Below, one piece after another: positions 9,579 through 52,224 of a DNA stretch of 64,000 nucleotides (position 1 is the first letter of the stretch; each line of letters starts with the position of its first letter). The stretch covers positions 2,790,001 to 2,854,000 of the forward strand of contig NZ_CP070969.1 of assembly GCF_017086365.1 (NCBI RefSeq). The letters are read 5' to 3'. A program made the position numbers and the translations under genes. Under the pieces are notes generated by a model that saw only the letters and a program-made list of their open reading frames with translations, did no database searches and was not told the origin of the DNA. Origin of the DNA: Paenibacillus tianjinensis. Lineage in GTDB: Bacteria > Bacillota > Bacilli > Paenibacillales > Paenibacillaceae.

Positions 9579-10442
9579 TTGGAAAACTACAGCGACATCA
9601 AACAAAGTGAAAAAGGGGCCTGGCTCAGTCTAATTGCATATATCCTTTTATCAGCAATCAAACTGTTCATCGGGAATGTCTCGGGATCCCAGGCACTGTT
9701 AGCCGATGGTCTTAATAATAGTACTGATATTATTGCTTCTATAGCTATTCTAATCGGACTTAAGATATCCAGAAGACCCCCTGATTCCAATCACAGCTAC
9801 GGGCATTTCAGAGCGGAGACAGTGGCCGCACTGATTGCTTCTTTTATCATGATTGCTGTAGGTATTCAAGTTCTGTACCAAGGTGTGAATAAGTTTATTC
9901 AGCCGGCGCTGGAAACGCCAGATCTGTTTGCCGCCTGGACAGCTGCGGGCTGTGCGGTGGTAATGCTTGCCGTATATATGTATAACATCAGGCTGGCCCG
10001 TGCGCTTCACAGCAATGCTATGCAAGCAGTAGCCCAGGATAACCGCTCGGATGCCTTGGTCAGCATGGGTGCATTCATAGGTATTATCGGTTCACAGTTC
10101 GGGCTGCCTTGGCTGGATCCGGTAACGGCAGTGATTGTCGGGCTGCTGATCTGTAAGACAGCCATTCAGATTTTCAGCAAAGCCACGCATGATCTGACAG
10201 ACGGTTTCGATGCCGGTGAGCTGGAGCTGATGAAGCAGACGGTGGCTGAAATTGAGGGCGTTGAATCGATCAAAGATATGAAAGCGAGAGTTCATGGCAA
10301 CTACGTGCTGGTGGATACGACAGTGCTGGTGGATTCCAGACTGAATGTTGTGCAGAGCCATGATATCACGGAAGAAATTGAGGATCAGCTGAAGGGCCGC
10401 CATCAGGTAGCTGATGTGCTGGTACATATAGAGCCGGTATGA
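9579..10442 (+). CDS. Cation diffusion facilitator (CDF) metal exporter
   Basis: This 287-residue inner-membrane antiporter probably exports Zn, Fe, Mn or Co in exchange for protons. Six membrane segments and a C-terminal cytoplasmic ferredoxin-like domain (from about residue 205) are visible. The metal-site motifs of the family appear as ADGLNNSTD in segment 2 and QDNRSDALVS in segment 5; NHSYGHFRAE follows segment 2. The start is one of two adjacent TTG codons. TTG 9579 is 8 nt after GGAGGT (9565-9570) and is preferred over 9576. The gene stands alone, with its own terminator. Metal specificity cannot be decided by eye. Confidence 0.93.
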   Translation: MENYSDIKQSEKGAWLSLIAYILLSAIKLFIGNVSGSQALLADGLNNSTDIIASIAILIGLKISRRPPDSNHSYGHFRAETVAALIASFIMIAVGIQVLYQGVNKFIQPALETPDLFAAWTAAGCAVVMLAVYMYNIRLARALHSNAMQAVAQDNRSDALVSMGAFIGIIGSQFGLPWLDPVTAVIVGLLICKTAIQIFSKATHDLTDGFDAGELELMKQTVAEIEGVESIKDMKARVHGNYVLVDTTVLVDSRLNVVQSHDITEEIEDQLKGRHQVADVLVHIEPV

Positions 10443-10463
10443 AGCCGGTTCTGATACAGAAGC

Positions 10464-10488
10464 AAGCCTGAGCAATCAGGCTTTTTTT
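10464..10488 (+). terminator. Terminator after the CDF gene
   Basis: AAGCCTGA and TCAGGCTT close a GCAA tetraloop and are followed by a T run. Confidence 0.9.
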
Positions 10489-10531
10489 GTGTTTACTTTT
10501 GAGCGGAAATCCACAATCATCCAATTCTTGC

Positions 10532-10562
10532 TTGACAGTTATATTACCTTTAAGTATATAAT
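10532..10562 (+). promoter_or_regulatory. Sigma-A promoter of the ADP-ribose operon
   Basis: A consensus -35 TTGACA (10532-10537) and a TATATA/TATAAT -10 beginning at 10555 are separated by 17 bp. The surrounding 120 bp are very AT-rich. The Nudix regulator encoded just downstream would be expected to bind here, but I did not identify its operator. Confidence 0.75.
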
Positions 10563-10633
10563 ATCAATATGTTATTAACAAAAAGATAATAATAAAATAT
10601 AAACATAAAAAATAACCTATAAGGAGCAGTTTG

Positions 10634-11533
10634 ATGAATAAACCACCCCTAACCGATGCTCAGGGATTAACTGAAGAACAATTTTTGCAGACGTATAATT
10701 CCGGTGAGTACGAGCGTCCGTCCGTGACCGTGGATATGCTGATTTTTACTGTAATGGAACGGGAACAGGATAACTACCGCAAGCTGTCTGATAAATCGCT
10801 GCAGCTTTTGCTGATTCAGCGGGGGCAGCATCCCTACCTGGGGCAATGGGCGCTGCCCGGAGGATTCGTGTCGGTCCATGAGAGCATTGAGGAGGCTGCA
10901 CGCAGGGAACTGTTCACAGAGACGAATATAGATAACATCTACATGGAGCAGCTGTATACCTGGGGAGAAGTGGAGCGTGATCCGCGAATGCGTGTCATCA
11001 GCTGCTCCTATATGGCCTTAGTTGACCGCACTACACTTAATGTTCAAGCTGGGGATGATGCAGCGGATGCAGCCTGGTTCGAGGTATCACATCAGCTAAT
11101 CGAGAGCAGCCGCAGGGAATTGGAGCAGGGCTTTGAACTGGTGAAGCTGATTCGTATTACAATGCAGAACGAGAGAACAACCCTTTCAGGTGTGGTCAAA
11201 CATGTGGAGACGGTTCACGGGCATGTCCGTAAAACGCATAGCCAGATTCTCGAAAGTGAAGGCTTAGCCTTTGATCACCTGCTGATGGTTCAGTACGCCA
11301 TCGAACGGCTGCGGGGAAAAGTGGAGTATACGGACATTATTTTTAATCTGATGCCTCCGCTGTTTACCTTATCTGAGCTCCAGCGGGTCTATGAGATCAT
11401 TCTCGGCAAAGAGCTGCTGGCAGCGGCGTTCCGCCGGAAGATTGCCGATCGTGTAACGGAGACTGAGGAATACACGAAGGATGCCGGACACCGGCCATCC
11501 AAGCTATACCGGTACAATATGAATAGGGAATAA
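10634..11533 (+). CDS. NrtR-like Nudix domain/winged-helix transcriptional regulator
   Basis: This 299-residue protein has an N-terminal Nudix domain (about residues 30-165) and a C-terminal winged-helix region (about 215-295, ending YTKDAGHRPSKLYRYN). This is the architecture of NrtR regulators, which sense ADP-ribose and control NAD metabolism. The Nudix box spans residues 77-99 (GFVSVHE then RELFTETNI). The first Glu of the usual EE pair is Thr and the conserved Gly is Asn, so hydrolysis may be weak and ligand sensing the main role; that is inference. ATG 10634 lies 7 nt after AAGGAG. It heads an operon with two ADP-ribose-processing enzymes. Confidence 0.87.
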   Translation: MNKPPLTDAQGLTEEQFLQTYNSGEYERPSVTVDMLIFTVMEREQDNYRKLSDKSLQLLLIQRGQHPYLGQWALPGGFVSVHESIEEAARRELFTETNIDNIYMEQLYTWGEVERDPRMRVISCSYMALVDRTTLNVQAGDDAADAAWFEVSHQLIESSRRELEQGFELVKLIRITMQNERTTLSGVVKHVETVHGHVRKTHSQILESEGLAFDHLLMVQYAIERLRGKVEYTDIIFNLMPPLFTLSELQRVYEIILGKELLAAAFRRKIADRVTETEEYTKDAGHRPSKLYRYNMNRE

Positions 11534-11562
11534 TTGTTAAGGGAGTAAAGGGGAGTAGAGTA

Positions 11563-12042
11563 ATGGAGAAATTCACGTATTTTTACCGGAGCCATTCACC
11601 ATTTTCACAGTGGTATCCGTGCAGTTTTACAGTCGATGAGATCCGCTTTAACTGTGCTGAGCAGTATATGATGTACGGTAAGGCACTATTGTTCGGGGAT
11701 GAGGAGATAAGCCGGAAGATACTGCTGGCCCGGACACCGAGAGAGCAGAAGGCGCTCGGCAAGCGGGTACGGGGGTTCGAGCAAACGAAATGGGAACGCC
11801 ACTGCAAAAGCATCGTCTATGAAGGAAATAAAGAAAAGTTTATTCAGAACCAGGAGCTGCTTCAGTTGTTATTAGATACCAGAGGCACAACGCTTGTGGA
11901 ATCAAGTCCAACAGACCGGATCTGGGGTGTCGGATTAACCGAGAATGATCCTGCTATCCGCAGCAGAAGCACTTGGCGCGGTACAAACTGGCTGGGTGAG
12001 GTTCTGACAAAATTGCGGGATGATCTCGTTGACGGATCGTAA
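11563..12042 (+). CDS. NADAR family (YbiA-like) N-glycosidase
   Basis: This 159-residue protein matches the NADAR/YbiA family: the N-terminal FYRSHSPFSQWYPCSF region, the NCAEQYMMYGKALLFGD segment, and the C-terminal RIWGVGL and TWRGTNWLGEVL motifs. Members hydrolyse N-glycosidic bonds; YbiA acts on a riboflavin intermediate, and some NADAR proteins remove ADP-ribose from guanosine and serve as antitoxins to DarT1-type toxins. No DarT toxin gene lies next to it. It is 30 bp downstream of the Nudix regulator and 31 bp upstream of a PARG gene, which favours a role in ADP-ribose handling here. Confidence 0.9.
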   Translation: MEKFTYFYRSHSPFSQWYPCSFTVDEIRFNCAEQYMMYGKALLFGDEEISRKILLARTPREQKALGKRVRGFEQTKWERHCKSIVYEGNKEKFIQNQELLQLLLDTRGTTLVESSPTDRIWGVGLTENDPAIRSRSTWRGTNWLGEVLTKLRDDLVDGS

Positions 12043-12072
12043 CGCATCCTTATGAGAATGGAGTGAGAACCT

Positions 12073-12936
12073 ATGAACACTAAGAGCAATCCAAGAAATA
12101 GAAGAGCCGCAATTGCTCAGGAGACTTTAGATTTGATTGCAAATGGCAGCTATATGAACAGCGCAGGACAGCTGGTAGATATTGCAGAATCTGTCCGGAC
12201 GGCAATTGCCGGTTCGCAGCTGTACTCACCGGAGCAGCTGACAAGACTTAACGAGGACATTATTGAGCGTATCCATCATCAACCACAGCATAAGGCGGCA
12301 ATTGAGGTCAGCGGTGAAACCACACTGCAGGCAGCGCAGCGGCTGGTAGAACAAGAGGGAATTAAGCACACGGTGTGTCTTAACTTTGCTTCCGCCAAGA
12401 ATCCCGGCGGCGGCTTCCTTGGCGGAAGCCAGGCCCAGGAGGAGAGCTTAGCCAGAGCTTCTGCCCTCTATCCCTGTATCTCACAAATGAAAGAAATGTA
12501 TGACTATAACCGTGGCCGGAAAACCTGCCTGTATTCGCATTACATGATTCATTCGCCGGACGTTCCTGTGTTCAGAGACAGGCAGGACGTCTTGCTTGCC
12601 AAACCCTTTGCGGTTTCGATGATTACTGCACCTGCAGTGAATGCGGGAGTGGTTAAGGAGCGGGAGCTCCATGAGGTACCACGGATTGCCGAAGTAATGC
12701 TGGAACGGATCCGCTATATCCTGGCAGTTGTTGCAGTGAATGGACATTCTGCCGTTGTGCTGGGAGCTTACGGTTGTGGTGTATTCCGTAATGATCCGAT
12801 GGAGGTAGCCGGTTACTTCCGTCAGGTCCTGCTGGTAGAAGGCTATCAGAAACTTTTTGACACCATCGTGTTTGCTGTGCTGGACCAGTCTCCACACCAG
12901 GGGGTAATCAGCGCCTTCCGCCGGAAGCTGCTATAA
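12073..12936 (+). CDS. Bacterial-type poly(ADP-ribose) glycohydrolase (TIGR02452 macrodomain family)
   Basis: This 287-residue protein carries the PARG catalytic loop: Gly112-Gly-Gly followed by seven residues and Gln122-Glu123-Glu124, within GGGFLGGSQAQEE. The upstream NFASAKNPGGG segment and the downstream VLGAYGCGVFRNDP segment are the other macrodomain landmarks. The family removes ADP-ribose from proteins or polymers. GGAGTGAG precedes ATG 12073. It is the last gene of the Nudix-NADAR-PARG operon, so the three products probably sense, release and recycle ADP-ribose. The N-terminal Arg/Asn-rich 100 residues match the DUF2263-like extension common in this family. Confidence 0.9.
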   Translation: MNTKSNPRNRRAAIAQETLDLIANGSYMNSAGQLVDIAESVRTAIAGSQLYSPEQLTRLNEDIIERIHHQPQHKAAIEVSGETTLQAAQRLVEQEGIKHTVCLNFASAKNPGGGFLGGSQAQEESLARASALYPCISQMKEMYDYNRGRKTCLYSHYMIHSPDVPVFRDRQDVLLAKPFAVSMITAPAVNAGVVKERELHEVPRIAEVMLERIRYILAVVAVNGHSAVVLGAYGCGVFRNDPMEVAGYFRQVLLVEGYQKLFDTIVFAVLDQSPHQGVISAFRRKLL

Positions 12937-12966
12937 CGCACTAAGCATCTTTGCCTGAATGATAGA

Positions 12967-13110
12967 TTAATTAATAAATATTTTGTACACCGCCAATATA
13001 AATAAAGCTCCCAGGACGATCCAGCCCAGTGGATGCCGGGGGTTCAAGGTCCAGCCGAGGCCTGATGATTTTGGAACAAATATGGGTTTTGAAGGATTTT
13101 TACGAAACAT
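12967..13110 (-). CDS. Small membrane protein, 47 aa
   Basis: A short gene on the minus strand in the 435-bp gap after the PARG gene. It begins with ATG 13110 preceded by AGGAGT at an 8-nt spacing, and ends with TAA. The product is MFRKNPSKPIFVPKSS, then a Trp/Gly/Pro segment (GWTLNPRHPLGW), then one membrane helix (about residues 29-45). The Trp-x-x-Asn-Pro-x-x-Pro pattern next to a helix resembles small DUF5808-type proteins, but that link is uncertain. Ribosome binding site, full-length frame and plausible topology together support a real gene. Function unknown. Confidence 0.65.
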   Translation of the reverse strand: MFRKNPSKPIFVPKSSGLGWTLNPRHPLGWIVLGALFILAVYKIFIN

Positions 13111-13371
13111 ATCCTAAGACTCCTATCAAAAGAATAATTGGTTGGCAGAATGCCGATATCCTGAGTATTGATCAATTACAGACAAACTGCAAGATGAACT
13201 TAATGCGCGCGAGATGATCTCGCGTTTTTTTGCGTTATTACAGATGAAGGCATTGCAGTTATTTTGCTGAATATTGTCGTGTGATGTTGTTAACAGAACT
13301 TTGATTCAGAAATTTGGAAAATAAAGTATGTGTATTTTTACATAAATTTTTGGAAAAGGGCAAGGTGAGTT
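13111..13371. other. Gap with an orphan plus-strand terminator
   Basis: Beyond the small minus-strand gene, the only structure seen is a hairpin at 13208-13224 (CGCGAGA/TCTCGCG, loop TGA) followed by seven T residues, oriented for plus-strand transcripts. No intact plus-strand gene ends just before it. Fragments in different frames (for example DELNAREMISRFF and KRIIGWQNADILSIDQLQ) hint at a decayed gene, but this is weak. Confidence 0.4.
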
Positions 13372-13782
13372 ATGATCGATTGGAAGGAATCTTATGACAT
13401 CGGTGTAGAAAAGATCGACTGCCAGCACAGACAGCTGCTTGTGAAGCTGAATGAATTTTTTGATGCATGCACCAACCAGAAGGGCAAAGAGAAGATCGAA
13501 GAAACACTGAGGTTCCTTAAGGAATATACGATTGAGCATTTTGGCAGCGAAGAGCAGCTGATGGCAGATATCGACTTTCCTGAACTTGCCGAGCACCAGA
13601 AGACACATGCTGAATTTGTACAGACCGTTCTGGAACTTGAAGAGAGTGTCAAGACCAAGGGTGTATCCGTATTGTCGACGATTAAGCTGAACCGTACGCT
13701 GACAGACTGGCTACTCAGCCACATCAGCAAATGCGATCAACTGATCGGGGATTGCATCGCCAGCAAGAATAAAGCAGTATAA
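13372..13782 (+). CDS. Bacteriohemerythrin
   Basis: This 136-residue four-helix bundle binds O2 at a di-iron site. All seven expected ligands are present: His19, His56, Glu60, His75, His79, His117 and Asp122. It is a single-domain protein, with no signalling domain attached, so it probably stores, senses or buffers oxygen in the cytoplasm. The TGAGTT before ATG 13372 is a weak ribosome binding site; the AAGGGCAAGGTGAG stretch 5-18 nt upstream probably serves. It is monocistronic with a terminator downstream. Confidence 0.95.
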   Translation: MIDWKESYDIGVEKIDCQHRQLLVKLNEFFDACTNQKGKEKIEETLRFLKEYTIEHFGSEEQLMADIDFPELAEHQKTHAEFVQTVLELEESVKTKGVSVLSTIKLNRTLTDWLLSHISKCDQLIGDCIASKNKAV

Positions 13783-13798
13783 CTACACAAATTGAAAC

Positions 13799-13827
13799 GA
13801 AGATGCTGAAGAGTATCTTCTTTTTTT
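13799..13827 (+). terminator. Terminator after bacteriohemerythrin
   Basis: GAAGATGCT pairs with AGTATCTTC (one G-U pair) and is followed by seven T residues. Confidence 0.85.
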
Positions 13828-37016: not shown

Positions 37017-37128
37017 ATGATGCAGACGTAGGGATAGATGTATTCTATAATTTAATAGAAACTGATCTTAAGCAGCGGTTGGGTCTAGCTATTACAGCGT
37101 GATTAATCAGGATATAGGAGGCAACTTC

Positions 37129-37725
37129 GTGATCTCGGACAACATCAGGCAACTAAACGGCACTTTTATTAAAATGGTTCCTCTGGAAGCAGCACATAAG
37201 GCAGAACTGACCGCCATTCTGAACAATCCGCGAATTTGGGAGTTCACCTGGAGAAAAATATCCTCCGCCGGAGAAGTAGAGCAGCTGATTGAGACGGCAC
37301 TTGCGGGTAAAGAGAAGGGGCAAGACCTGCCTTTTGTGATGATTGATCTTTCGACCGGCAGAATCGCCGGCACCTCGCGGATTATGCATATCGACCGGAC
37401 TCACCGGAATGCGGAAATCGGCTGCACCTGGATCTCTCCGGACTACTGGAGAACGCCGGTCAATACGGAGGCCAAATCACTTCTGCTGCAGTACTGCTTC
37501 GAGCACCTGGAGCTGATCCGGGTCAACTTCACGATTGTCGGTGATAACCTGAGATCACAAAAAGCTATCGAGCGGATTGGTGCAGTAAAAGAAGGCGTTC
37601 TGCGCAAGCACCGGATCACTTCGGGAGGGGCTGTACTGGATAATGTGCTGTACAGCATCATCGATGAAGACTGGCCGGCAGTTAAAGCAAATTTGCATTA
37701 TCTGCTGCATGAGAAATACAAGTAG
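37129..37725 (+). CDS. GNAT family N-acetyltransferase (RimJ/RimL type)
   Basis: This 198-residue acetyltransferase has the RimJ/RimL-like core: IAGTSRIMHIDRTHRNAEIGCTWISPDYWRTPVNTEAK, then NLRSQKAIERIGAVKEGVLRKH, which carries the acetyl-CoA-binding region. GTG 37129 is 7 nt after GGAGG (37117-37121); an upstream GTG at 37099 precedes the ribosome binding site. Relatives acetylate ribosomal protein N-termini or small molecules. The gene follows thrS but has its own terminator. Confidence 0.88.
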   Translation: MISDNIRQLNGTFIKMVPLEAAHKAELTAILNNPRIWEFTWRKISSAGEVEQLIETALAGKEKGQDLPFVMIDLSTGRIAGTSRIMHIDRTHRNAEIGCTWISPDYWRTPVNTEAKSLLLQYCFEHLELIRVNFTIVGDNLRSQKAIERIGAVKEGVLRKHRITSGGAVLDNVLYSIIDEDWPAVKANLHYLLHEKYK

Positions 37726-37750
37726 TAATCTATGCTGCATTTAGTAGTAG

Positions 37751-37777
37751 AAAGAGCCGCCGACCGGCTCTTTTTTT
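37751..37777 (+). terminator. Terminator after the GNAT gene
   Basis: AAAGAGCC and GGCTCTTT form the stem, followed by a run of seven T residues. Confidence 0.85.
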
Positions 37778-37836
37778 AATTGTGGCTGTTATGTAATCAA
37801 TCTATATTACAAATAGCCAGATTTCTATTTGATTGA

Positions 37837-37921
37837 TATAATAGAAACATATATTCCCCGATAACAATAACTTATCAGTATTACTCAGCCCATATTTCAC
37901 CCTGCATGGGGCAAATATGGG
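37837..37921 (+). promoter_or_regulatory. Promoter and leader hairpin of the SMC-like operon
   Basis: TATAAT (37837-37842) is a likely -10, but no good -35 is seen. About 45 nt into the presumed leader there is a strong stem-loop at 37889-37921: CCCATATTT pairs with AAATATGGG, with an inner CCC/GGG pair and a TGCAT loop. It is followed by TTTATGTTATTT. This could act as an attenuator or partial terminator that holds expression low. No other feature is seen in this 266-bp gap. Confidence 0.45.
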
Positions 37922-37991
37922 TTTATGTTATTTATTCGGAATACCTAAGTTGAAGCTAGACTACGAAGTGATGGCGAGGTAGGCATTAGAT

Positions 37992-39500
37992 ATGAACTGG
38001 ACGGATTTTGGTGAACGGAATAAACGGCTCAACCCGCTGTGGAGCCTTGGTGCAGGGATGAATCTTGGTGAGCTGCAGCCCTATAAGGAGATGATTGCGC
38101 TCAGCGTGCTGCTGCAGGTCTACTACCTGGAGCTGGAATCGAACGAACAGCGGTCTAAGGAAGATATTATCGCTCTCACGTGGAGTTCGCTGGAACGCTT
38201 CAATATTGCCAGGCTCGGCACATCCGAATCCGTGGAACGGCTGGTCGACGGACTACTGTGGAGCGGCAGCGGGGGTGATTTTGAGGCGGTATATTATGAT
38301 GACCACACTAGGCAGATGACGGTGCAAAAGTACAAATACTTCACGGTTGACGAGGATGCAACCCGCAGCAGCTGGGAAGAGAACGGCACTACCATATACA
38401 GGCTGTCCGAATACGCACTGGAACTGATTTTCATGAGCCATGAGATTATCGATGAATTTCAGATCAGCATTAAGCTGCTCGAAATTCAGATGCACATTAA
38501 GCATGGCCGCGTAACCCGGGCGATGCAGGATGTGAACGAACTCATCTCACGTGTGCGGAAGATGACCCAGCAGCAGCAGGAATACCGCAGCGCCCTGCGC
38601 CGCAATCCGAAGCATATTTTCAGCGAATACGGCGTGATACGGCATCAGCGGCTGGAGGAGATTCACCAGCAGTTTGACGAGGAACGCAGGCACTTCGATA
38701 ATATTCACCGCTCGCTGGCCCGGCTGGCCAATGACGAGAAGGATGTCATCGACTTTAACGAGCTGCGGCTCCTGTCCGAACGGGTGGAGCTGTCGCGTAA
38801 AGTGCATGATGAGCTGGCTGAGGTCGTCCTGAGTATTTTTGAAGCCGAGACGAACTTAAGACTGAATTTCCCGGAGCTGTTCTGGGGGGCTGCAGGGTTT
38901 AATTTCCGGACGAATGTCTGGGAGGAATGGGTTAAGAGTGAGGGCCTGCCCGGCGGGGACAGCCTGGAACTCCTGGTCAGCGGGCTGTTTGCGCCGCACC
39001 AGGACTTCATTTATCCTCTCGCCTGGGCTTGGGAGGAGCAGGATGTCGGCTTTTTGCCGGAAGAATTGTTAAATGAGCCTGAGGATGAGGAAGAGGAGAC
39101 GGAAGCTCCTTATGTGCCGAAGTCGATCCCGTGGGACGAGGTCGCGGAGCTGTGGCTTCCTGTATTTACGGAGCTGGCTGAAGCGGGGCAGTTTACGTTT
39201 TCATCAGACGCCTTTCCAGAGGAAGTAAAACTAAAATGGGCCCGGACGCCGGATGCCGTCGACCTCTGGGCGCAGTTTTTTCACACGGAGATTAGGGTTC
39301 AGGAGCTTGAAGCGAACAGCCCTGGCGGGACAGACGAGTGCCAGCGGCTAATCCAATATCTGCTCCAGGAACATCCTGAGCTGGAGATACTGCGTGGTCA
39401 AACACTACGAACAACAATTGCCGGAGAACAGCGGAATGAAACCGTCAAATGGCCGGGGCTGGAAATGAGTCCCTATACCATTACTATAGTACAGAGATGA
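37992..39500 (+). CDS. Kleisin-like subunit of an SMC-type complex (JetA/MksF-like)
   Basis: This 502-residue protein is not closely recognised but fits the JetA/MksF position and style. An N-terminal winged-helix-like region (about residues 25-110) leads to RLSEYALELIFMSHEI and a long helical region (about 145-290; AMQDVNELISRVRKMTQQ), as in kleisins that bind an SMC neck. An acidic insert lies near residues 361-374 (NEPEDEEEETEAP). A C-terminal domain follows. GAGGTAGG precedes ATG 37992. It is 11 bp before a small subunit gene and is followed by a 1495-aa SMC-like ATPase, an order matching MksF-E-B and Wadjet JetA-B-C. Confidence 0.72.
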   Translation: MNWTDFGERNKRLNPLWSLGAGMNLGELQPYKEMIALSVLLQVYYLELESNEQRSKEDIIALTWSSLERFNIARLGTSESVERLVDGLLWSGSGGDFEAVYYDDHTRQMTVQKYKYFTVDEDATRSSWEENGTTIYRLSEYALELIFMSHEIIDEFQISIKLLEIQMHIKHGRVTRAMQDVNELISRVRKMTQQQQEYRSALRRNPKHIFSEYGVIRHQRLEEIHQQFDEERRHFDNIHRSLARLANDEKDVIDFNELRLLSERVELSRKVHDELAEVVLSIFEAETNLRLNFPELFWGAAGFNFRTNVWEEWVKSEGLPGGDSLELLVSGLFAPHQDFIYPLAWAWEEQDVGFLPEELLNEPEDEEEETEAPYVPKSIPWDEVAELWLPVFTELAEAGQFTFSSDAFPEEVKLKWARTPDAVDLWAQFFHTEIRVQELEANSPGGTDECQRLIQYLLQEHPELEILRGQTLRTTIAGEQRNETVKWPGLEMSPYTITIVQR

Positions 39501-39511
39501 GAGGTTAGAGC

Positions 39512-40270
39512 ATGAGCTATTCATTAGAACAATTACAGATGGCCTCGCGGCTGTTTTTTGATCTGCTTCGCCGGAAAGTAATTTCACTAGATGATCCCGC
39601 CGCAGCGGAATGCCTGCAGGATACCGGGGCTTATGATGCCCTGCAGTACCTGGCTAAGGAGGGAGGCTGCCGGATCATGAATTCCGGACACCGCCTGCAT
39701 TTGCTGGTGAATCCGCTCGGTTCGGGATTTGCCACCAACTTCACCCAGCTGCGGAATAAATATTCAAGGGTTGAGCGTAAAACCCATCTACATATTATCA
39801 ATGTCATTATTCTGGTATTTCTGGCGGAAATGGATCAGGATGAGCAGCATTTCAAGCCCGGGCAGGACAGCATGTCCTATATTCAGATTTCCGACCAGGT
39901 ATCCTCATTGTTTCAGTCATGGAATGCACTGGATGAAGACGGGACATTCAGCAAACAGTGGCGTCTGGATATCCAGGCGATGTACAAGGTATGGACCAAT
40001 CTCTATATGCAGACCAAAAGCCAGGAGGATGGAGACTCTTTATCCAGAGGGTACGGCTCGCGGATCGGTCTGATCCATGAAGGGATGAAGCTGCTGGAGG
40101 ATGAGCATCTGGTGTTCATTTCAGAGAATGAGAAACGGATTTTCCCGCGGGAAGAATTGTATGAACGAATGCGTTATCTGTATCATGATGTTGACCGTTA
40201 TAAGGAACTGAAAGCTTTGATCGGCCGGACCTTGACGGAGAAAGAAGGGGAAGCCCATGCCGCGCATTGA
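39512..40270 (+). CDS. Accessory subunit of the SMC-type complex (JetB/MksE-like, DUF6063-like)
   Basis: This 252-residue protein lies between the kleisin-like and SMC-like genes. It begins with a helical region (SLEQLQMASRLFFDLLRRKVI), followed by a winged-helix-like part (NSGHRLHLLVNPLGSGFATN) and a long helical body. Size, position and alpha-helical content are those of MksE/JetB (kite) subunits; I also recall it as DUF6063. AGAGGTTAG precedes the ATG, and its 3' end overlaps the next gene by 14 bp, indicating coupled translation in fixed stoichiometry. Confidence 0.7.
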   Translation: MSYSLEQLQMASRLFFDLLRRKVISLDDPAAAECLQDTGAYDALQYLAKEGGCRIMNSGHRLHLLVNPLGSGFATNFTQLRNKYSRVERKTHLHIINVIILVFLAEMDQDEQHFKPGQDSMSYIQISDQVSSLFQSWNALDEDGTFSKQWRLDIQAMYKVWTNLYMQTKSQEDGDSLSRGYGSRIGLIHEGMKLLEDEHLVFISENEKRIFPREELYERMRYLYHDVDRYKELKALIGRTLTEKEGEAHAAH

Positions 40271-43200
40271 GCGTATCCGTATCGCCGGACTGAAGTATGA
40301 GAAGATGCTGAAGAAGTATGATGATATGGTTCTTGACCTCTGCAACGAGGAAGGACCGGCTAATACCCTGATCACCCTGATGAACGGCGGCGGTAAGGGC
40401 GTACTGCTTCAGTCGATTTTTCAATTACTGATTCCCAAAGCCGCTTGGGGCAAAGATAACGAGAACCAGGTGGAGGCATTCTTTCATAATCATAAAAAGC
40501 AGCTCAAACCCTATACCTTCCATGTCGCTATCGAGTGGAGGCTGGATAACGATGAGCGTAATGAATATATGACGACCGCTATCGCCATGACTGCCCACAG
40601 TTCCGTGGATCAGCTGGAAATCAAGGTGGATTATTTGCTCTACACGCTTATGGATTATGATGAGCAGGCTGAACTTACACTTTCGACCTTGCCCCTCTAT
40701 AATCAGTCAGAAGGCGGGCCGGCGAGTTTTGAAGCGATCCAGCAGTTTGTGCGCGAGCACCGCGGGGAGATTGTCCCATTTGGCAGCAGCAATTCTGAAC
40801 TCAAGAAGTATTACAACTTTCTGCAAGAGCGGGATATTCATATCGGTGAGTGGCGTAACATGAAGAAAATCAACGGCGAAGAGGGCGGGATCAAGGGCTA
40901 TTTTCAAAAAAATGACGCCTTTACGAACCAGAATCTGTTCGAGAAGCTAATCATTCCTGAAATCGGCTCCAGCCTTAATGAAGGCCTTCGTGAGGAAGAC
41001 GGTTCCCTGCAGCGGATGTTCCTCGACGCGGCGACGGTCGCCCAGCGGCTGCCGATGCTGGAACAGCGGGAGAAGGCTTTTGCCGAATTCACCTCACTGA
41101 CTGCGCCGCTCTATGAGCTGGTGAAGCAAGGAACGGAAGCCGAGCAGCGTTTTCAGGAGTCTGAGCAGCAGGGGCGGCAGATCTTTACGGTCATCCATGA
41201 GGAGCTTAAGACTGCCGAGGACAAGCGGCGTGAGCAAGCAGATGAACTGGTCCGCCTGCATCAGGAAGGCCGCCAGCTGCGGTTTGAGGCGGATAATCTG
41301 ACTTATCTGCGCAGCAAAGAGGAACATGACCGGAAACAGGATGAATTCAAGGGGATCAGTGACAATCAGGCAAGAGCACGCGCGCGGCTGGATGCATCGA
41401 AGGAGAAGGAAAAGCATCTGGAAGTGGCGTACTACTTAGCCAAACGCAAAGTCCAACTCCGCCAGATCGAGCAGTGGCAGAAGGAAATAGAAGCGATCGA
41501 AGGTTCGCTTGAAATGAAGGAACGGCAAGAGGTAATTAAGAGCGCCAAGAATGAGCTGCGTACCCAGTGGGATAAGGTATCCTTGTTGTGGCAGAAGCAA
41601 ATTTCCATATTTGCTGAGCGCCAGCATGCCTTAACGACAGAAGAGGGGGGATTGCAAAAGGAAAGAGAAAGTTTCCTGCTGGAGCTGGGAGGACTGGAGA
41701 ACCGGATTAATGAGCTTACTAGCGCTATCCGGCAATTTACAGAGGAAACAGGCATCTTCACTTCACGCCATGGACAAGAAGCTGCGTCCGCTCCAGGTGC
41801 AGCGCTTCAGCGGACGTTAATCGCTATAAACGGGATTGAAGGCAGTATCACCGAACTCAAGGAGCAGCGCAAGCTTGCCGAGGCGCAGCGGTTCAGCCTG
41901 CACAAAGCACATGCAGAGCTTAGCGTAAAACAGAACGCCCAGAATCAGCAAACTGATGAGCTGAACAATCAGCTTGAAGTGCAGATGAACAAAGAATCAC
42001 AGCTATGGTCACAACTGGTCGTGCTGCTTGAGCTGTATGAAGAGCATCAGGTAATGGGTGTGGCGGCATTGTTTGAAGCCAAGGCTGTGATTCAGGAGCG
42101 GTTTATCCGCAGGCTGGATGATGCCGAGCAGCAGACGAAACGGCTCAGAAGAGCTTATTACCATCAGCAGATGGATGTAGAGCTGCAGCAGGAAGCGTAC
42201 TGGCTGCCTAATGCAGACGTTCTTACTGTGAAAGATACGTTGGATGCGCTGAAGATTACCTCCATGCTCGGCAGTTCTTTTCTCAATGACTTGTCTTATT
42301 TAAACCGTGAAGAAGAGCTGGAACGTCATCCGCTGCTCCCGTATGGACTAATTGTTACACAGCGTGAGGCGGATAAAATCCCTCCTGGTGCTTTGAAGGA
42401 AATTATCCTCAAATCTGCTGTACCGGTCTTTATCCGCGAAGAAATGGCTGGGACGGCAGTGGAGCCCTTCCGGCTGCTCTCCAACCAGGGGCCCCAGATG
42501 ATTCTGCAGCCTGAACGCTTCCAGGACTGGAAGCGCGGTATCGCATCAAGGCTGAAGGAGCAGGAGGAAGAGCTGCAGGACGCGGAAAATTACCTCTCCA
42601 AGCTGAGATCTGCCCGCCAAGAGTTCGAGCGGCTGTTCCAAGGCGAGCATACGATGAATCTCAGAGCTAAGCTGAGCACACTTGCACAACTCAGCGATGA
42701 GCTTGGCCAAAAGTTAAGCAGCCTGAACCATGAGATCAGCAGCAATGAAGAGGCTCTGGCGAGCATTCAGAAAGAAGTGGTTCAAAATGAGCTGGAGCAG
42801 ACCGGACTAGAACAAAGGGTGCAGGCGCTGCGCCAGTGGGAAGAACGGACGAAGAAGCAGGAGCAGGATTACAGGGACAAGCAGAGTGCTGTGGAACGCA
42901 AACAGGTTCTAAGCAAAGAGATTGCCGCCAAAGAGCAAGGGATGGTCCAGCTGAAAGCGGAAATGGACAGCACCGCGCAGCAGCGTGTGAACTGGATTGG
43001 GGATACACGCTACTCCTTATTCCCGAGGCTGCAAAGCTGGTTCCCGGAGATTGTTTTTCCTGGTGAACTTCATCCTTCAGAGGGTTCCGGTTTAGAAGAG
43101 CAGGAGTTTGATCCAGAGGCTCAAAATATACTCCAGCAGCTGCTCAGTACTGTGGAAAGCCTGCAGCAATCCTTAACGCAAAATGAGCTGGAAATCCGTA

Positions 43201-44744
43201 CCCGGGCAGGCAATATTAAACGAGCCGGTGAACAGCTGGCTGAGCTGGAGTCCGCCGTCAATGAGGTAGATAAACAATGGAAGAATGCGGCTGAGCCTTC
43301 CGATTCTCCGGAAACCCTTATGACAGCGAGAGCACGCCAGAAGAACGAAACAGCTAATTTGGATGAAGATTACCAGAACGTGCGTGAATCCTACATCCGC
43401 TGCCAGACGATTCTGGAGAATCTGCAGAAGGATCTGCGGAAAGCTGAAAAAACGATCAAAGAAAAACACGAACGCCCGGTGGAAATCTGGCAGGAATCCC
43501 TCGACGCTAAAGAAGCTGAGGTTAATGCTCGCAACCGCGAAAACGAGCATTTGCTGAACAGCTGCAAGCAGGCCTTATCTTCAATGGATCAGTGGATTCA
43601 AACGCTGGGTAATCAGAGTAAGATAATGGATACGCATGTTGAAGGCCGCACACAGCTGCGGGAAGTGCCGGAAGAAATACAGCTGCGCGTAAGAGAAGAT
43701 TGTGAACCGCTGGTAGCCGATTGGCTGCTGCAGAGCAAGAAAAGCCGCGGAGAGCGAGCCGAAATCTCCCGCAAAGTGAAGGAAGAGAAATCTTCTTTAA
43801 GCAGTAAGCTCGCCAAGTGCGGATGGAACAGCGAACTGGAGACCAAGATTCAGGAGCGGCTTAATACCGTACACTGGGATGATTTCTTTATTGCCCGCCA
43901 AGTGCTGGATTCCATGCTGCAGAGCTCGCAGGATCAGATTGAGAGCATCCGCAGTGATAAGGAAGGGATGGAGCTGTCCCGGAAGCTATGGGTCGGGCGC
44001 GCCGCCAAGCGGGTCGTGCAAATTGTGGATATCCTGAAGCGCATGGAACGGCGGATGATCATCCACAATGAGAACGGACATGCTTTTCCGCTGGTGCGGC
44101 TGAATTATAAGAATATCACCGTTCCAAAGACTACAGAGGATATCGAACCGCTGGTCAGCGACTATTTCAACCGCTGCATCAGCATTTTGCTGGAGAAATA
44201 TCCGAAGATTGAGCAGGTTCCGGCAGCTGCGGTCAAGGAGCTTATAAATGACGGAAAAATCGTATATGCCGCAATGCAGAACCGTTTCCCGGTACTTCAA
44301 GTGTACAAGCCGGTCACCGAGAACTACTTCCTCTATGCGGCCCCGGAAGAATTCCATTACTCCGACTGGGAGGTTATTAACCGCGGAGCGCTGGATGAAG
44401 CTGTCGGCAGCGGCGGTCAGCGCCAATCCGTGCAGCTTCTGGTAGCGATGATGATCATGACGCATAAACGGGTTAACCGTGAGAATAAAGGCTGGACGGT
44501 CTTCTTATATGACAATCCGTTCGGCGAAATGGTCTCGAACAACGTGCTTGATCCGGTGTTTGAGATCTCCAAAGCATTGAGGTTCCAGTGGCTAATCGTC
44601 ACGCCGCCGGAGCTGGTTAAGAATGATGTCAGTGTCCGTTTCGGCGTTTACTGGCAGCTCTATTTTGGCGGCGATAAGGGAGAAATGCTGGAATCCACGC
44701 TCGTAAAAGGCGGAAGAAAGCTGATCCCGGCTTCGCTGTTCTAA
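40257..44744 (+). CDS. SMC-like coiled-coil ATPase (JetC/MksB-like)
   Basis: This 1495-residue protein has a split ATPase head. Walker A-like MNGGGKGV is at residues 42-49, and the signature SGGQRQS (1385-1391) and Walker B-like VFLYDNPFG (1415-1423) are at the far C-terminus. Between them lie two long coiled-coil regions (about 270-640 and 765-1310) around a globular hinge-like segment (about 648-760, YWLPNADVLTVKD onward). This is the SMC/MksB plan. Two key positions are unusual: Gly follows the Walker A Lys, and Asn replaces the usual catalytic Glu after the Walker B Asp. GGGGAAG precedes ATG 40257. It probably loads onto or extrudes DNA with the two upstream proteins. Confidence 0.82.
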   Translation: MPRIERIRIAGLKYEKMLKKYDDMVLDLCNEEGPANTLITLMNGGGKGVLLQSIFQLLIPKAAWGKDNENQVEAFFHNHKKQLKPYTFHVAIEWRLDNDERNEYMTTAIAMTAHSSVDQLEIKVDYLLYTLMDYDEQAELTLSTLPLYNQSEGGPASFEAIQQFVREHRGEIVPFGSSNSELKKYYNFLQERDIHIGEWRNMKKINGEEGGIKGYFQKNDAFTNQNLFEKLIIPEIGSSLNEGLREEDGSLQRMFLDAATVAQRLPMLEQREKAFAEFTSLTAPLYELVKQGTEAEQRFQESEQQGRQIFTVIHEELKTAEDKRREQADELVRLHQEGRQLRFEADNLTYLRSKEEHDRKQDEFKGISDNQARARARLDASKEKEKHLEVAYYLAKRKVQLRQIEQWQKEIEAIEGSLEMKERQEVIKSAKNELRTQWDKVSLLWQKQISIFAERQHALTTEEGGLQKERESFLLELGGLENRINELTSAIRQFTEETGIFTSRHGQEAASAPGAALQRTLIAINGIEGSITELKEQRKLAEAQRFSLHKAHAELSVKQNAQNQQTDELNNQLEVQMNKESQLWSQLVVLLELYEEHQVMGVAALFEAKAVIQERFIRRLDDAEQQTKRLRRAYYHQQMDVELQQEAYWLPNADVLTVKDTLDALKITSMLGSSFLNDLSYLNREEELERHPLLPYGLIVTQREADKIPPGALKEIILKSAVPVFIREEMAGTAVEPFRLLSNQGPQMILQPERFQDWKRGIASRLKEQEEELQDAENYLSKLRSARQEFERLFQGEHTMNLRAKLSTLAQLSDELGQKLSSLNHEISSNEEALASIQKEVVQNELEQTGLEQRVQALRQWEERTKKQEQDYRDKQSAVERKQVLSKEIAAKEQGMVQLKAEMDSTAQQRVNWIGDTRYSLFPRLQSWFPEIVFPGELHPSEGSGLEEQEFDPEAQNILQQLLSTVESLQQSLTQNELEIRTRAGNIKRAGEQLAELESAVNEVDKQWKNAAEPSDSPETLMTARARQKNETANLDEDYQNVRESYIRCQTILENLQKDLRKAEKTIKEKHERPVEIWQESLDAKEAEVNARNRENEHLLNSCKQALSSMDQWIQTLGNQSKIMDTHVEGRTQLREVPEEIQLRVREDCEPLVADWLLQSKKSRGERAEISRKVKEEKSSLSSKLAKCGWNSELETKIQERLNTVHWDDFFIARQVLDSMLQSSQDQIESIRSDKEGMELSRKLWVGRAAKRVVQIVDILKRMERRMIIHNENGHAFPLVRLNYKNITVPKTTEDIEPLVSDYFNRCISILLEKYPKIEQVPAAAVKELINDGKIVYAAMQNRFPVLQVYKPVTENYFLYAAPEEFHYSDWEVINRGALDEAVGSGGQRQSVQLLVAMMIMTHKRVNRENKGWTVFLYDNPFGEMVSNNVLDPVFEISKALRFQWLIVTPPELVKNDVSVRFGVYWQLYFGGDKGEMLESTLVKGGRKLIPASLF

Positions 44745-44755
44745 ATATAAATATC

Positions 44756-44810
44756 AAATAGAACCAGCCTGCCAGGCTCAAACCTGGCAGGCTGGTTCTA
44801 TTTTTATATG
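44756..44810 (+). terminator. Strong terminator of the SMC-like operon
   Basis: A perfect 21-bp stem (44756-44776 with 44783-44803; core CCAGCCTGCCAGG) closes a 6-nt CTCAAA loop. The stem's 3' arm ends in T residues and is followed by TTATAT. Confidence 0.92.
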
Positions 44811-44918: not shown

Positions 44919-46046
44919 ATGAATCGGAAGATTATCAAAATAACATTTATCGCCATGATGCTGAGTATGATGCTGCCGGTGCTGAGCTGGGCAAAACCGG
45001 CTGTACCGGAGCCTACGGAATCGTTCTACGTCAATGATTTTGCCAATGTAATTGACGTAAAGGCTGAGAACTATATGGTCAATTACGGAGTAAAGCTTCA
45101 CCAGGAGACCGGAACACAGGTCGTGCTGGTTACGGTTGATTCCACGGGCGGGGCTTCAATGGAAGAGTACGCGACCATGTTGTTCAACAGCTGGGGCATG
45201 GGTACAGCGGATAAGAACAATAGAGTCCTCCTGCTGCTCTCGATCAAAGATAATAAATATTGGGCACTGCAGGGAAACGGGCTAAAGAGCACCTTAACAG
45301 ATAACGTCTTGTCACAGATTCTCTCGGATTCACTCGAGCCGGACTTTGCGGACAAAAATTACGCCGCCGGTGCGCGGAAAACCTACGGAGCACTCATTGA
45401 ACGCCTGGGCGGGGTTTGGAAAGAGCCGCTCGGGAGCAGGAATTATGTGGCTGACAACGCCAGAGTCCTGCCTCAGGTAACCAGGCTGTATCTCAACCAG
45501 TCCAGTAACCTTTATAAAACAACGACCGGAAGCGGCATTTACATCGTAACAGTGAAGAATACCGGAGGCCGCAGCCTGCAGGATTACACCTACGCAAAAT
45601 TTGCATCCATACGTGCCGGTTCCAGGGATGTGCTGCTAGTGCTGGATATCGAAGGCGACAACTACCATGTGCTGCAGGGAAGAAATGTAGACAGGACGCT
45701 GACGAATGAGCTTATCAGAGGCATTCTGGATAAGGTGCTCGAACCGCAATTTGCCGGCAAAAATTACGCTGCCGGTGTCACAGCAACGGCAAATGAATTT
45801 TACAGCTTTTTTCTGGCCAGAGCAGATCACAGTCCGGAAATAGCTTCGGCAGCTTCCATGACAGCTTTTACAGCGGCAAACGACAATTCCATAAACACCG
45901 GAACGGATAGACCGGCAGTGTCAACAGCAGCTATATCGGTAACGAAGCCAGCCTCATTGAGTAAGGGACTGACGTTTCTCGCGCTTTCCATTATATTTAT
46001 CGTATTGATTGCAACGGTGGTGTCACGCCGCAACCAATATAACTAG
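44919..46046 (+). CDS. Membrane-anchored protein with two TPM domains (YgcG-like)
   Basis: This 375-residue protein has a signal peptide (about residues 1-26), two tandem TPM domains and a C-terminal membrane segment (about 345-367) followed by RRNQYN. Each TPM domain shows the same pattern: YVNDFANVI...TGTQVVLVTV...NYAAGARKTYGAL and YVADNARVL...TGSGIYIVTV...NYAAGVTATANEF. Two TPM domains in one chain is an internal duplication. TPM proteins act in the envelope, some as phosphatases or photosystem repair factors. It has its own terminator and no link to the SMC-like operon. Confidence 0.87.
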   Translation: MNRKIIKITFIAMMLSMMLPVLSWAKPAVPEPTESFYVNDFANVIDVKAENYMVNYGVKLHQETGTQVVLVTVDSTGGASMEEYATMLFNSWGMGTADKNNRVLLLLSIKDNKYWALQGNGLKSTLTDNVLSQILSDSLEPDFADKNYAAGARKTYGALIERLGGVWKEPLGSRNYVADNARVLPQVTRLYLNQSSNLYKTTTGSGIYIVTVKNTGGRSLQDYTYAKFASIRAGSRDVLLVLDIEGDNYHVLQGRNVDRTLTNELIRGILDKVLEPQFAGKNYAAGVTATANEFYSFFLARADHSPEIASAASMTAFTAANDNSINTGTDRPAVSTAAISVTKPASLSKGLTFLALSIIFIVLIATVVSRRNQYN

Positions 46047-50236: not shown

Positions 50237-50294
50237 CTTGAAAAGCCCGGAAAACCATGTTTAAATAATGTTAATTGATTTGAATTGAATATGA

Positions 50295-50592
50295 AAAGCG
50301 ATGACGAGAAGAGTACTTAAGATAACGTTGTTCCCAGAGAGCTCCTAGGTGGTGAGATGGAGCAGCAATGTGCTTAACGAATAAAGTCTCCGAGCTGCAT
50401 ACGGAATTGGGGAAGTAATATAGCTCAAGGATGGTATGACGGGATCTCCCGTTACAGAGATAGGGTATAAGCGTAATGGCCGTACCCGAAGAGGCGGGCC
50501 TGGCAACATGACCGCGAACAGAGGTGGTACCACGACGCTATTCATAGCTCTCGTCCTCAAGATAACAATCTTGAGGGCGGGAGCTTTTTTTG
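50295..50592 (+). promoter_or_regulatory. T-box leader, lysyl-tRNA responsive
   Basis: Stem I elements AGAGAGCTCC and GGTGGTGAGATGGAGC are followed by GAAT-AAA-GTCTC, giving specifier AAA (50383-50385), a Lys codon. The T-box AGAGGTGGTACCACG ends at 50534. The terminator is the stem at about 50547-50585 with GCTC...GAGC ends and a T run. It controls the class I LysRS gene immediately downstream. Lysine T-boxes are rare and are mainly known in front of class I lysS in Bacillus cereus-type bacteria. Confidence 0.92.
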
Positions 50593-50625
50593 CTTTTCCA
50601 ATACTATAAACAGAGGAGCATTAAC

Positions 50626-52224
50626 ATGCATTGGGCACAAAAATACGCAAACAATTTAATCCAAAACCATCCTGAACGACAGACCTTTGTATGCGCATCA
50701 GGGATTAGCCCGTCGGGTTCGGTGCATATCGGAAACTTTCGGGAGATCGTCACGACATACTTCGTCACGCAGGCACTCCGGAAATCCGGCAAAGAGGTAC
50801 GGTTTATTTTCTCATGGGATGATTTCGACCGGTTCCGCAAGGTTCCTGCTCAGCTTGATCCTTCTTTTGAACAATATATCGGCTTGCCTTATACCAAGGT
50901 ACCTTGTCCCTGCGGAAGTCATGCCTCCTATGCGGAGCACTATGAACAGGAATTTGAACATGCGCTGGCTGCCTTCGGAATTGTTCCCGAGTTCATTTAT
51001 CAGAGCCGCGAGTATCAATCGCTCCGGTATAATCCGGCTATTCTGCATGCGCTGCGCAATAGAGCAGAAATTTACGACATTCTGATGATGTTCAAAACAG
51101 GAAAAGCAACGGAGGACGCACGGGCTGCCTTTTATCCGGTACAAGTGTACTGTGAGCGCTGCGGGAAGGATACGACCAGTGTCCATGCTTTTGACGAAGA
51201 CTCAGAAAACCTGATCTATAGCTGCAAATGCGGCTGTTATAATACACTGTACGTTCCAAAGGCGGCGAATATCAAATTACACTGGAAAATCGACTGGCCG
51301 ATGCGCTGGGGAATGGAGCAGGTTGTGTTCGAGCCGGGAGGCCGGGATCACTCCTCCGAAACGGGCAGCTATAATGTCGCTAAGGTTATCTCGGAGAGAA
51401 TCTTCGGGAATCCGCCGCCTTATTACGTTCCCTATGAATTCATCAGCATCAAAGGCAGCCATGCCAAAATGTCCAGCTCTTCCGGCCATAATTACACACC
51501 TGCGGATCTGCTCGAGGTGTACGGGCCGGAGCCGATCATGTTCCTGTTTGCCAAATATCATCCGAATACCGCTTTTAGTATCGGGCTTGATGAGGATGTT
51601 CTGCGTAATTACACGGAATTCGAAAGATACCGCAAAGCATATGACGCCGGAACGTTGACTGACAATGATTTAAGCGCAGCGATGGAGCTTTCACTTATGA
51701 AGGATACAGAGCCTCATGCACCCAGCTTTAGTCAGGTATCCAGTCTGCTGCCGCTAATTAATTTTGACAACAGAGTGCTGCAGGAGCTGCTTCGGCAAGG
51801 CGGTGAGGATTACTCTGAGGAGATCATTCAGCAAACGGCAGCACGGGCCGGGCACTGGATTAGACAGTTTGTTCCACAGAGGCTAGTTACGGTAAACGAA
51901 AACCCGGACATAGCTTTGTATCATACGCTTGAAGCTGTTGAGCAGGAGTGGATAAACGCTTTTTGCGGCTTGTTGAGAGAAGAAAAAATAGAGGAAGAGG
52001 AACTCATGAGACGAGTTTACGCTATTTGTCACCATGATGACAAAAAGATGATGAGAAGCAATCAGAAACGCCTGTTTGCCTTGATATACCAGCTTGTTCT
52101 GCATCAGTCGGAAGGGCCGAGGATTCCTGCTCTGATCCAGGCTGTAGGAACGGAACCTCTGCTCCGTCTACTGGACTTTACGGGATCGTCCCGGGAGAGG
52201 TATAATAGAACGGACTGTTTATAA
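50626..52224 (+). CDS. lysS: Lysyl-tRNA synthetase, class I
   Basis: This 532-residue class I enzyme has the HIGH-like motif PSGSVHIGNFRE near residue 30, a zinc-type Cys cluster (CPCGSH; CERCGKD; CKCGC) and the KMSKS-like motif HAKMSSSSG near residue 285. It charges tRNA-Lys and is unrelated to the usual bacterial class II LysRS. ATG 50626 follows AGAGGAG. The T-box upstream ties its expression to uncharged tRNA-Lys, which suggests a stress or stationary-phase back-up role next to a class II enzyme elsewhere (inference). Confidence 0.95.
   Translation: MHWAQKYANNLIQNHPERQTFVCASGISPSGSVHIGNFREIVTTYFVTQALRKSGKEVRFIFSWDDFDRFRKVPAQLDPSFEQYIGLPYTKVPCPCGSHASYAEHYEQEFEHALAAFGIVPEFIYQSREYQSLRYNPAILHALRNRAEIYDILMMFKTGKATEDARAAFYPVQVYCERCGKDTTSVHAFDEDSENLIYSCKCGCYNTLYVPKAANIKLHWKIDWPMRWGMEQVVFEPGGRDHSSETGSYNVAKVISERIFGNPPPYYVPYEFISIKGSHAKMSSSSGHNYTPADLLEVYGPEPIMFLFAKYHPNTAFSIGLDEDVLRNYTEFERYRKAYDAGTLTDNDLSAAMELSLMKDTEPHAPSFSQVSSLLPLINFDNRVLQELLRQGGEDYSEEIIQQTAARAGHWIRQFVPQRLVTVNENPDIALYHTLEAVEQEWINAFCGLLREEKIEEEELMRRVYAICHHDDKKMMRSNQKRLFALIYQLVLHQSEGPRIPALIQAVGTEPLLRLLDFTGSSRERYNRTDCL

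Follow-up and report, generated by a model that had tools for sequence, protein, structure and literature searches.

The three-gene operon jetA-jetB-jetC in a 64,000-nucleotide stretch of Paenibacillus tianjinensis DNA (assembly GCF_017086365.1, contig NZ_CP070969.1, positions 2,790,001 to 2,854,000; the whole stretch is referred to as the window) is the core of a type III Wadjet system, a plasmid-cutting defence system built on a structural maintenance of chromosomes (SMC) motor. It is close to certain that its ancestor was a complete jetD-jetA-jetB-jetC operon, which lost about 1.0 kb of the nuclease gene jetD in a deletion. The nuclease-free jetABC genes are under strong purifying selection, like those of nuclease-bearing kin, and are very probably useful without a JetD of their own. 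JetABC may serve the chromosome as an accessory condensin alongside Smc, by analogy with other nuclease-free SMC complexes; this role is given a probability of about one half.

The assignment of jetA, jetB and jetC is far above chance. JetA matched the PADLOC model JetA3 (PDLC00565) with 760 bits (E = 2.1e-229), JetB the model JetB3 (PDLC00573) with 373 bits (E = 1.2e-112), and JetC the model JetC3 (PDLC00584) with 2932 bits over residues 1-1495. The three type III models are thus matched nearly full length within one operon, in which all genes lie on the + strand, jetA and jetB are separated by an 11-bp gap and jetB and jetC overlap by 14 bp in the list of open reading frames (ORFs). Of JetD, the CAP-Toprim nuclease of the system, only 5′ and 3′ remnants are encoded in the operon. 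The original prediction, made from the letters of the DNA, had described an SMC/kleisin operon with its genes in the order JetABC and no nuclease gene next to them; the ORFs, the PADLOC matches and the immediate neighbours, a GNAT and a TPM gene confirmed by domain matches and neither of them a nuclease, agree with it. Its suggestion of an undescribed class has to be given up, as all three proteins fit existing type III models and the fourth gene was once present in the lineage and then lost. The models TIGR02677-02680, which it had also named for comparison, were not listed for JetA, JetB or JetC at E values up to 1.

The loss of jetD is recorded in the 266-bp gap between the GNAT gene and jetA. 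In G029 and G090, which are among the nearest kin of the window (G and L numbers denote surveyed genomes and loci), jetD sits exactly between these two genes, and alignment with both revealed a jetD remnant in the gap. The old start codon and the first codons are kept at one end and codons from near the C-terminus at the other; about 1.0 kb between them is deleted, and the promoter block and leader are retained. The 3′ remnant was matched with at most 5/26 mismatches in 27 of the 34 loci of the genus survey described below that have no jetD (best of 2500 shuffles, 8) and is unrecognisable in the other seven, and the 5′ remnant was matched with at most 6/22 mismatches in 30/34 (4/1000 shuffles as good). 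The junctions vary by lineage, with about 18 kinds counted by eye. At G056 the junction forms a 23-codon in-frame mini-ORF overlapping jetA, and longer N- and C-terminal jetD fragments are retained in G030 and G078. No common direct repeat that could explain the deletions was seen by eye. No new gene stands in place of jetD in the window, and replacement of the effector by another gene was rejected, the gaps of 266 bp (GNAT to jetA) and 174 bp (jetC to TPM) being too small.

The distribution of jetD was surveyed in 100 genomes of the genus, of which 52 match the JetC model. Fifty loci were compared, excluding G042, a distant subfamily with adjacent D-A-B-C, and G044, which is 72% complete and whose locus runs into contig ends; a second short JetC match in G074 (contig C48) lies outside the analysis. 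Directly upstream of jetA, jetD is intact in 13 loci, broken in 3 and absent in 34. The intact genes have about 360 codons, and their products share invariant positions, including the EN, GD.D and LIYG motifs, with the JetD of a second Wadjet system in the window genome. The broken genes show an internal deletion (G078), several frames (G093) or two parts about 1.6 kb apart (G084; L083, near 10391-13800). In a family-wide search (E <= 1e-50), JetC matched in 36/295 genomes: 31 belong to the same genus and score at least 2785 bits, and five, scoring about 200-590 bits, belong to four other genera. The survey of neighbours of homologues, which had been proposed along with the original prediction, placed jetD upstream of jetA in 13/50 loci of the genus and in 5/5 distant loci of the family, all with adjacent D-A-B-C. 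Since the distant loci all have this order and jetD lies between GNAT and jetA in G029 and G090, jetD is ancestral and its absence is derived.

At least 13 changes between presence and absence of an intact jetD are needed on the jetABC tree. A count that allows no regain gives 24 losses, which is probably too high, since jetD can be regained. The tree was built by a quick method with midpoint rooting; 31/47 inner branches are starred, and the G053 and G029 rows are under half filled. A window-type neighbour (GNAT, threonyl-tRNA synthetase or HAD gene) was present in the fetched stretch at 38/50 loci, and the remaining 12 are elsewhere or not resolved. Among named records, the closest JetC proteins are from Paenibacillus auburnensis (97%), P. 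ihuae (96%) and an uncultured Paenibacillus (95%); the named loci with JetC number 23, all Paenibacillus except one labelled Bacillus sp. FJAT-27264.

The ratio of nonsynonymous to synonymous substitution rates (dN/dS) was low throughout the retained motor. In seven jetD-less groups it was 0.066-0.119 for JetA, 0.019-0.035 for JetB and 0.070-0.099 for JetC, at a mean synonymous divergence (dS) of 0.19-0.44. The corresponding values in jetD-bearing groups were 0.049-0.137 (five groups), 0.016-0.052 (three) and 0.081-0.125 (four). Threonyl-tRNA synthetase gave 0.049-0.121 where it was available. JetD, where present, evolves faster, with a median dN/dS of 0.19 versus 0.09 for JetA and 0.12 for JetC. 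Intact jetD is missing from all members of groups h (window, G006, G040), a, c, q and o. On the tree, jetD-bearing loci fall among the members of group b (G087, G085, G067, G094), and group n (G057, G058, G069, G038) encloses the jetD-bearing G079 and has more than one junction; in these two groups the losses may be younger. Full-length jetA, jetB and jetC are present in 33/34 jetD-less, 3/3 broken-jetD and 11/13 jetD-bearing loci, the exceptions being a split jetC in the jetD-less G053, split jetB and jetC in G029 and a jetB ORF of only 209 codons in G092. G029 (L103, 3273-11338) presents the opposite case to the window, an intact jetD beside a split jetB and jetC; sequencing error is possible there. 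Neutral simulation of three loci, with the neutral distance chosen as roughly half of dS (0.11-0.20 per site), gave means of 26, 31 and 43 premature stops, with 14-29 as the smallest of 200 runs, and none was seen.

Selection of this strength indicates that JetABC is very probably useful. PMC10586767 outlines the Wadjet model, in which DNA loops are extruded by JetABC and JetD is triggered to cut when the DNA is a small circle. The same text states that all four subunits were needed against plasmids in B. subtilis, and its section 7 that most Wadjet work concerns type I. JetABC lacking JetD could not cut plasmids by this route. As the promoter block, the leader and the jetD-end stretch are kept, jetABC should still be expressed, and the complex would most likely still load on DNA and extrude loops. 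It may then be kept for a benefit to the cell that does not depend on cutting. The most likely and most economical such role is that of an accessory condensin, working on the chromosome next to Smc in the manner of nuclease-free MksBEF or MukBEF. The nuclease-free condensin variant proposed at the outset remains the best functional guess; the sequences show the family, the scar, the distribution and the selection, and expression, loop extrusion and the chromosomal role are inferred.

The top structural matches of the AlphaFold model of JetA were MukF chains; the JetB model was unusable (predicted local distance difference test score, 56.2). A sequence search of the PDB found no credible solved relatives for JetA, JetB, JetC or JetD. 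The Walker A and signature motifs are kept in 48/48 full-length JetC proteins and the Walker B motif FLYDNPFG in 47/48. SMC ATPases usually carry a catalytic Glu in Walker B; residues 1419-1423 of the window JetC read DNPFG, with Asn at the usual Glu position. DNPFG is also found in second-system JetC proteins (L003, L109), and a type II JetC (L111) and a type I JetC (L106) have DEA. By pattern, neither DNPFG nor Walker A was found in JetC of the five distant family loci.

Several points weigh against an accessory condensin that has outlived its nuclease. The Walker B Asn, present also in jetD-bearing kin, leaves ATP turnover not assured. No released JetD interface was detected: columns invariant in JetD-bearing loci are not more variable in jetD-less rows than under random labels, those changed in at least 3 jetD-less rows numbering 8 versus 10.4 for JetA, 7 versus 7.3 for JetB and 29 versus 47.3 for JetC. 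The sequence itself does not favour the chromosome over plasmids as the target. jetD can be replaced by recombination, as at G086, so the D-less state may not be permanent. Finally, the loci were chosen by jetC, so losses of the whole operon go unseen, and 48/100 genomes of the genus have no JetC match.

The same complex could act on plasmids or other circular DNA without cutting them, by compacting, silencing or mis-segregating them. We consider this unlikely on the whole, and it is the alternative that survives best. Sensing of DNA shape and size is ascribed to the JetABC part of Wadjet in PMC10586767, and the Walker A and signature motifs are kept; Smc5/6 is presented in the same text as an SMC complex that targets extrachromosomal DNA.

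An improbable alternative is that the presence of jetD is simply polymorphic, jetABC persisting where recombination restores jetD before the other genes have decayed. The jetD of G086 (L066, 9710-10813) differs from those of its sisters G046 and G050 by a dS of 0.66-0.74, against about 0.2 for jetA and jetC, and was probably replaced by recombination, as judged from this divergence. In one clade, moreover, the jetD-bearing G046, G086 and G050 are intermixed with jetD-less loci that are alike at the junction. However, jetD-less clades of three (window, G006, G040), three (G008, G041, G059) and five loci each have one junction, a mean dS of 0.19-0.41 and no relaxed selection, and thus outlast what a useless core should.

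A nuclease supplied in trans, by a second Wadjet JetD or by the host, could instead serve the window JetABC; the original prediction had likewise allowed for an effector elsewhere. The window genome (G000; one contig, 6.27 Mb) carries a second type III Wadjet, complete and very divergent in sequence, 2.2 Mb from the window operon at about 638,059-645,790 of C1 (L003, 10059-17790), with JetD of 350, JetA of 509, JetB of 253 and JetC of 1478 amino acids (365 bits to JetD3, 741 to JetA3, 412 to JetB3 and 1801 to JetC3). Similar sets (JetD-JetA-JetC) occur in G081, G090 and G091. Its JetD, the only other one found in the genome, is only 29% identical over 299 amino acids to the JetD of a window-type locus and has its own JetABC, and G006 and G040, which share the scar of the window, have no match to Pfam JetD_C or to a custom JetD profile. 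With these two models, no other JetD was found in 30 of the 34 nuclease-free genomes; a whole JetD gene elsewhere is present only in G000, G081, G017 and G039, each time beside other Wadjet genes (type III in G000 and G081, type I genes in G017, type II JetC and JetD in G039), other nuclease families not having been searched for. Supply in trans is therefore disfavoured and very improbable. The type I JetC of G017 (L106, 7280-10108), beside JetA1 and JetD1, has an open frame that starts at model position 188/1097, and its N-terminus, with the Walker A end, seems to be missing or in another frame.

The least probable reading, a dead remnant on its way out, could appeal to the lost jetD and the split jetC of G053, but is strongly disfavoured: the motor genes are full length in 33/34 jetD-less loci, against 11/13 jetD-bearing ones, dN/dS is 0.02-0.12, and the tens of stops predicted neutrally are missing.

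A broader proposal, held as somewhat less likely than not, is that the genus has repeatedly converted an SMC defence system that cuts plasmids into an SMC complex without a nuclease, the motor being kept in the surveyed loci through at least 13 state changes. The operons would be living intermediates toward condensins of the MksBEF/MukBEF kind, and the nuclease a module that can be detached from a motor with its own function. The origin of MukBEF and MksBEF from defence systems is an open proposal in section 7 of PMC10586767; such an origin requires loss of the nuclease along the path. The genus offers replicate cases of this loss: the conserved motor lies beside a jetD that is intact, broken or reduced to a scar, and close relatives differ in this partly at one and the same locus, so that matched strains allow a direct test of the question. 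In this genus at least, plasmid defence can be overestimated if JetABC genes are counted as Wadjet defence. Wadjet_III has been reported in eight Paenibacillus larvae isolates, in a text that gives no gene detail where it lists them (PMC10688787). In the open-access literature searched (subscription journals and preprints were outside its scope), no title or abstract on a jetD-less type III Wadjet was found. The type III family is known; the nuclease-free state and its recurrence in this genus, the scars and the selection acting on the motor did not turn up in these searches.

Features of the jetABC operon and its surroundings (positions are those of the window)
Feature	Position	Strand	Basis and remarks
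GNAT gene, upstream neighbour	37099-37725		
Terminator-like hairpin	37749-37775		
Promoter-like site	37814..37842	+	Consensus match, TAGCCA-17-TATAAT, TG before the -10
Leader inverted repeat	37889..37921	+	CCCATATTT...AAATATGGG, just before the old jetD start; 88.6% of cells pair
jetD 5′ remnant	37925..37948	+	Old start codon (37925) and first codons, now MLFIRNT-stop; alignment with G029/G090, 5/22 mismatches
jetD 3′ remnant	37959..37984	+	Codons DYEVMAR near the C-terminus, just before jetA; 4/26 mismatches, no shuffle of 2500 below 8
jetA3, kleisin-type subunit, 502 amino acids	37992..39500	+	PADLOC PDLC00565
jetB3, KITE-type subunit (role by family), DUF6063, 252 amino acids	39512..40270	+	PADLOC PDLC00573, Pfam PF19539
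jetC3, SMC-like ATPase, 1495 amino acids	40257..44744	+	PADLOC PDLC00584; motifs NGGGKG, GSGGQRQS, FLYDNPFG
Terminator-like hairpin after jetC	44757..44802	+	20-pair stem
TPM gene, downstream neighbour	44919-46046		

The region between the GNAT gene and jetA retains what could be control elements. The promoter scan found 6 sites versus 6.5 expected by chance and is no evidence by itself. The block TTGATATAATAGAAACATATATTC (37833-37856) is conserved across relatives, with at most 7/24 mismatches in 34/34 jetD-less loci (10/1000 shuffles as good). The strongly conserved ATAATAGAAACATATATTC (37833-37921 region), which extends beyond the -10, is followed by the inverted repeat, in jetD-bearing and jetD-less loci alike. 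The 37833-37921 block is a possible operator or leader control. A covarying RNA hairpin in the leader was not supported, no covariation beyond shuffles being found and the fold z-score being -0.98; 5/50 loci were skipped in this alignment and 26 of the remaining 45 were aligned.

A terminator had been predicted on each side of the operon. Terminator-like hairpins are present at both places; the 7.4-kb stretch scanned contains 12 such sites versus 6.2 expected by chance, but the hairpin after jetC stands out by its 20-pair stem. An aldo/keto reductase gene of about 280 amino acids lies directly after jetC in 19/50 loci (e.g. L054, 11806-12654) and is absent there in the window; it occurs with and without jetD and was rejected as a replacement effector. 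The sole Rfam match in the window is a T-box leader (RF00230, 96.3 bits) at 50292-50561, before an ORF at 50590-52224.

With type III Wadjet (JetABCD) the operon shares full-length matches of all three proteins to the subfamily models, and 13/50 relatives have an intact jetD directly before jetA; it differs in that its jetD is reduced to a scar, so that the known cutting function should be absent. The second type III Wadjet of the window genome has the same type and gene order but is complete with JetD, and its JetC is 22% identical to the window JetC. JetC does not match the ATPase of Smc-ScpAB, reaching only 10.4 bits against the TIGR02168 cut-off of 567.35; a canonical Smc is encoded in the genome at C1:2729795 (TIGR02168, 1162 bits), and JetABC is therefore additional. 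MukBEF apparently took over from Smc in its hosts, according to PMC10586767. In contrast, the host of the window operon retains Smc, and its JetA, JetB and JetC have no credible PDB sequence match. Like the window operon, MksBEF of Pseudomonas aeruginosa, which is not known to include MksG, combines a MukB-like ATPase with a kleisin and a KITE subunit, lacks a nuclease and occurs in a cell that has Smc as well. The plasmid-directed MksBEFG of C. glutamicum is contrasted in PMC7083940 with this P. aeruginosa MksBEF, for which a function in chromosome organisation is assumed there. The window proteins are set apart from MksBEF and MksBEFG by having no NCBIfam TIGR02677-02680 match (E up to 1), and the Paenibacillus loci differ from MksBEF in that the loss of the nuclease was repeated within one genus and left scars.

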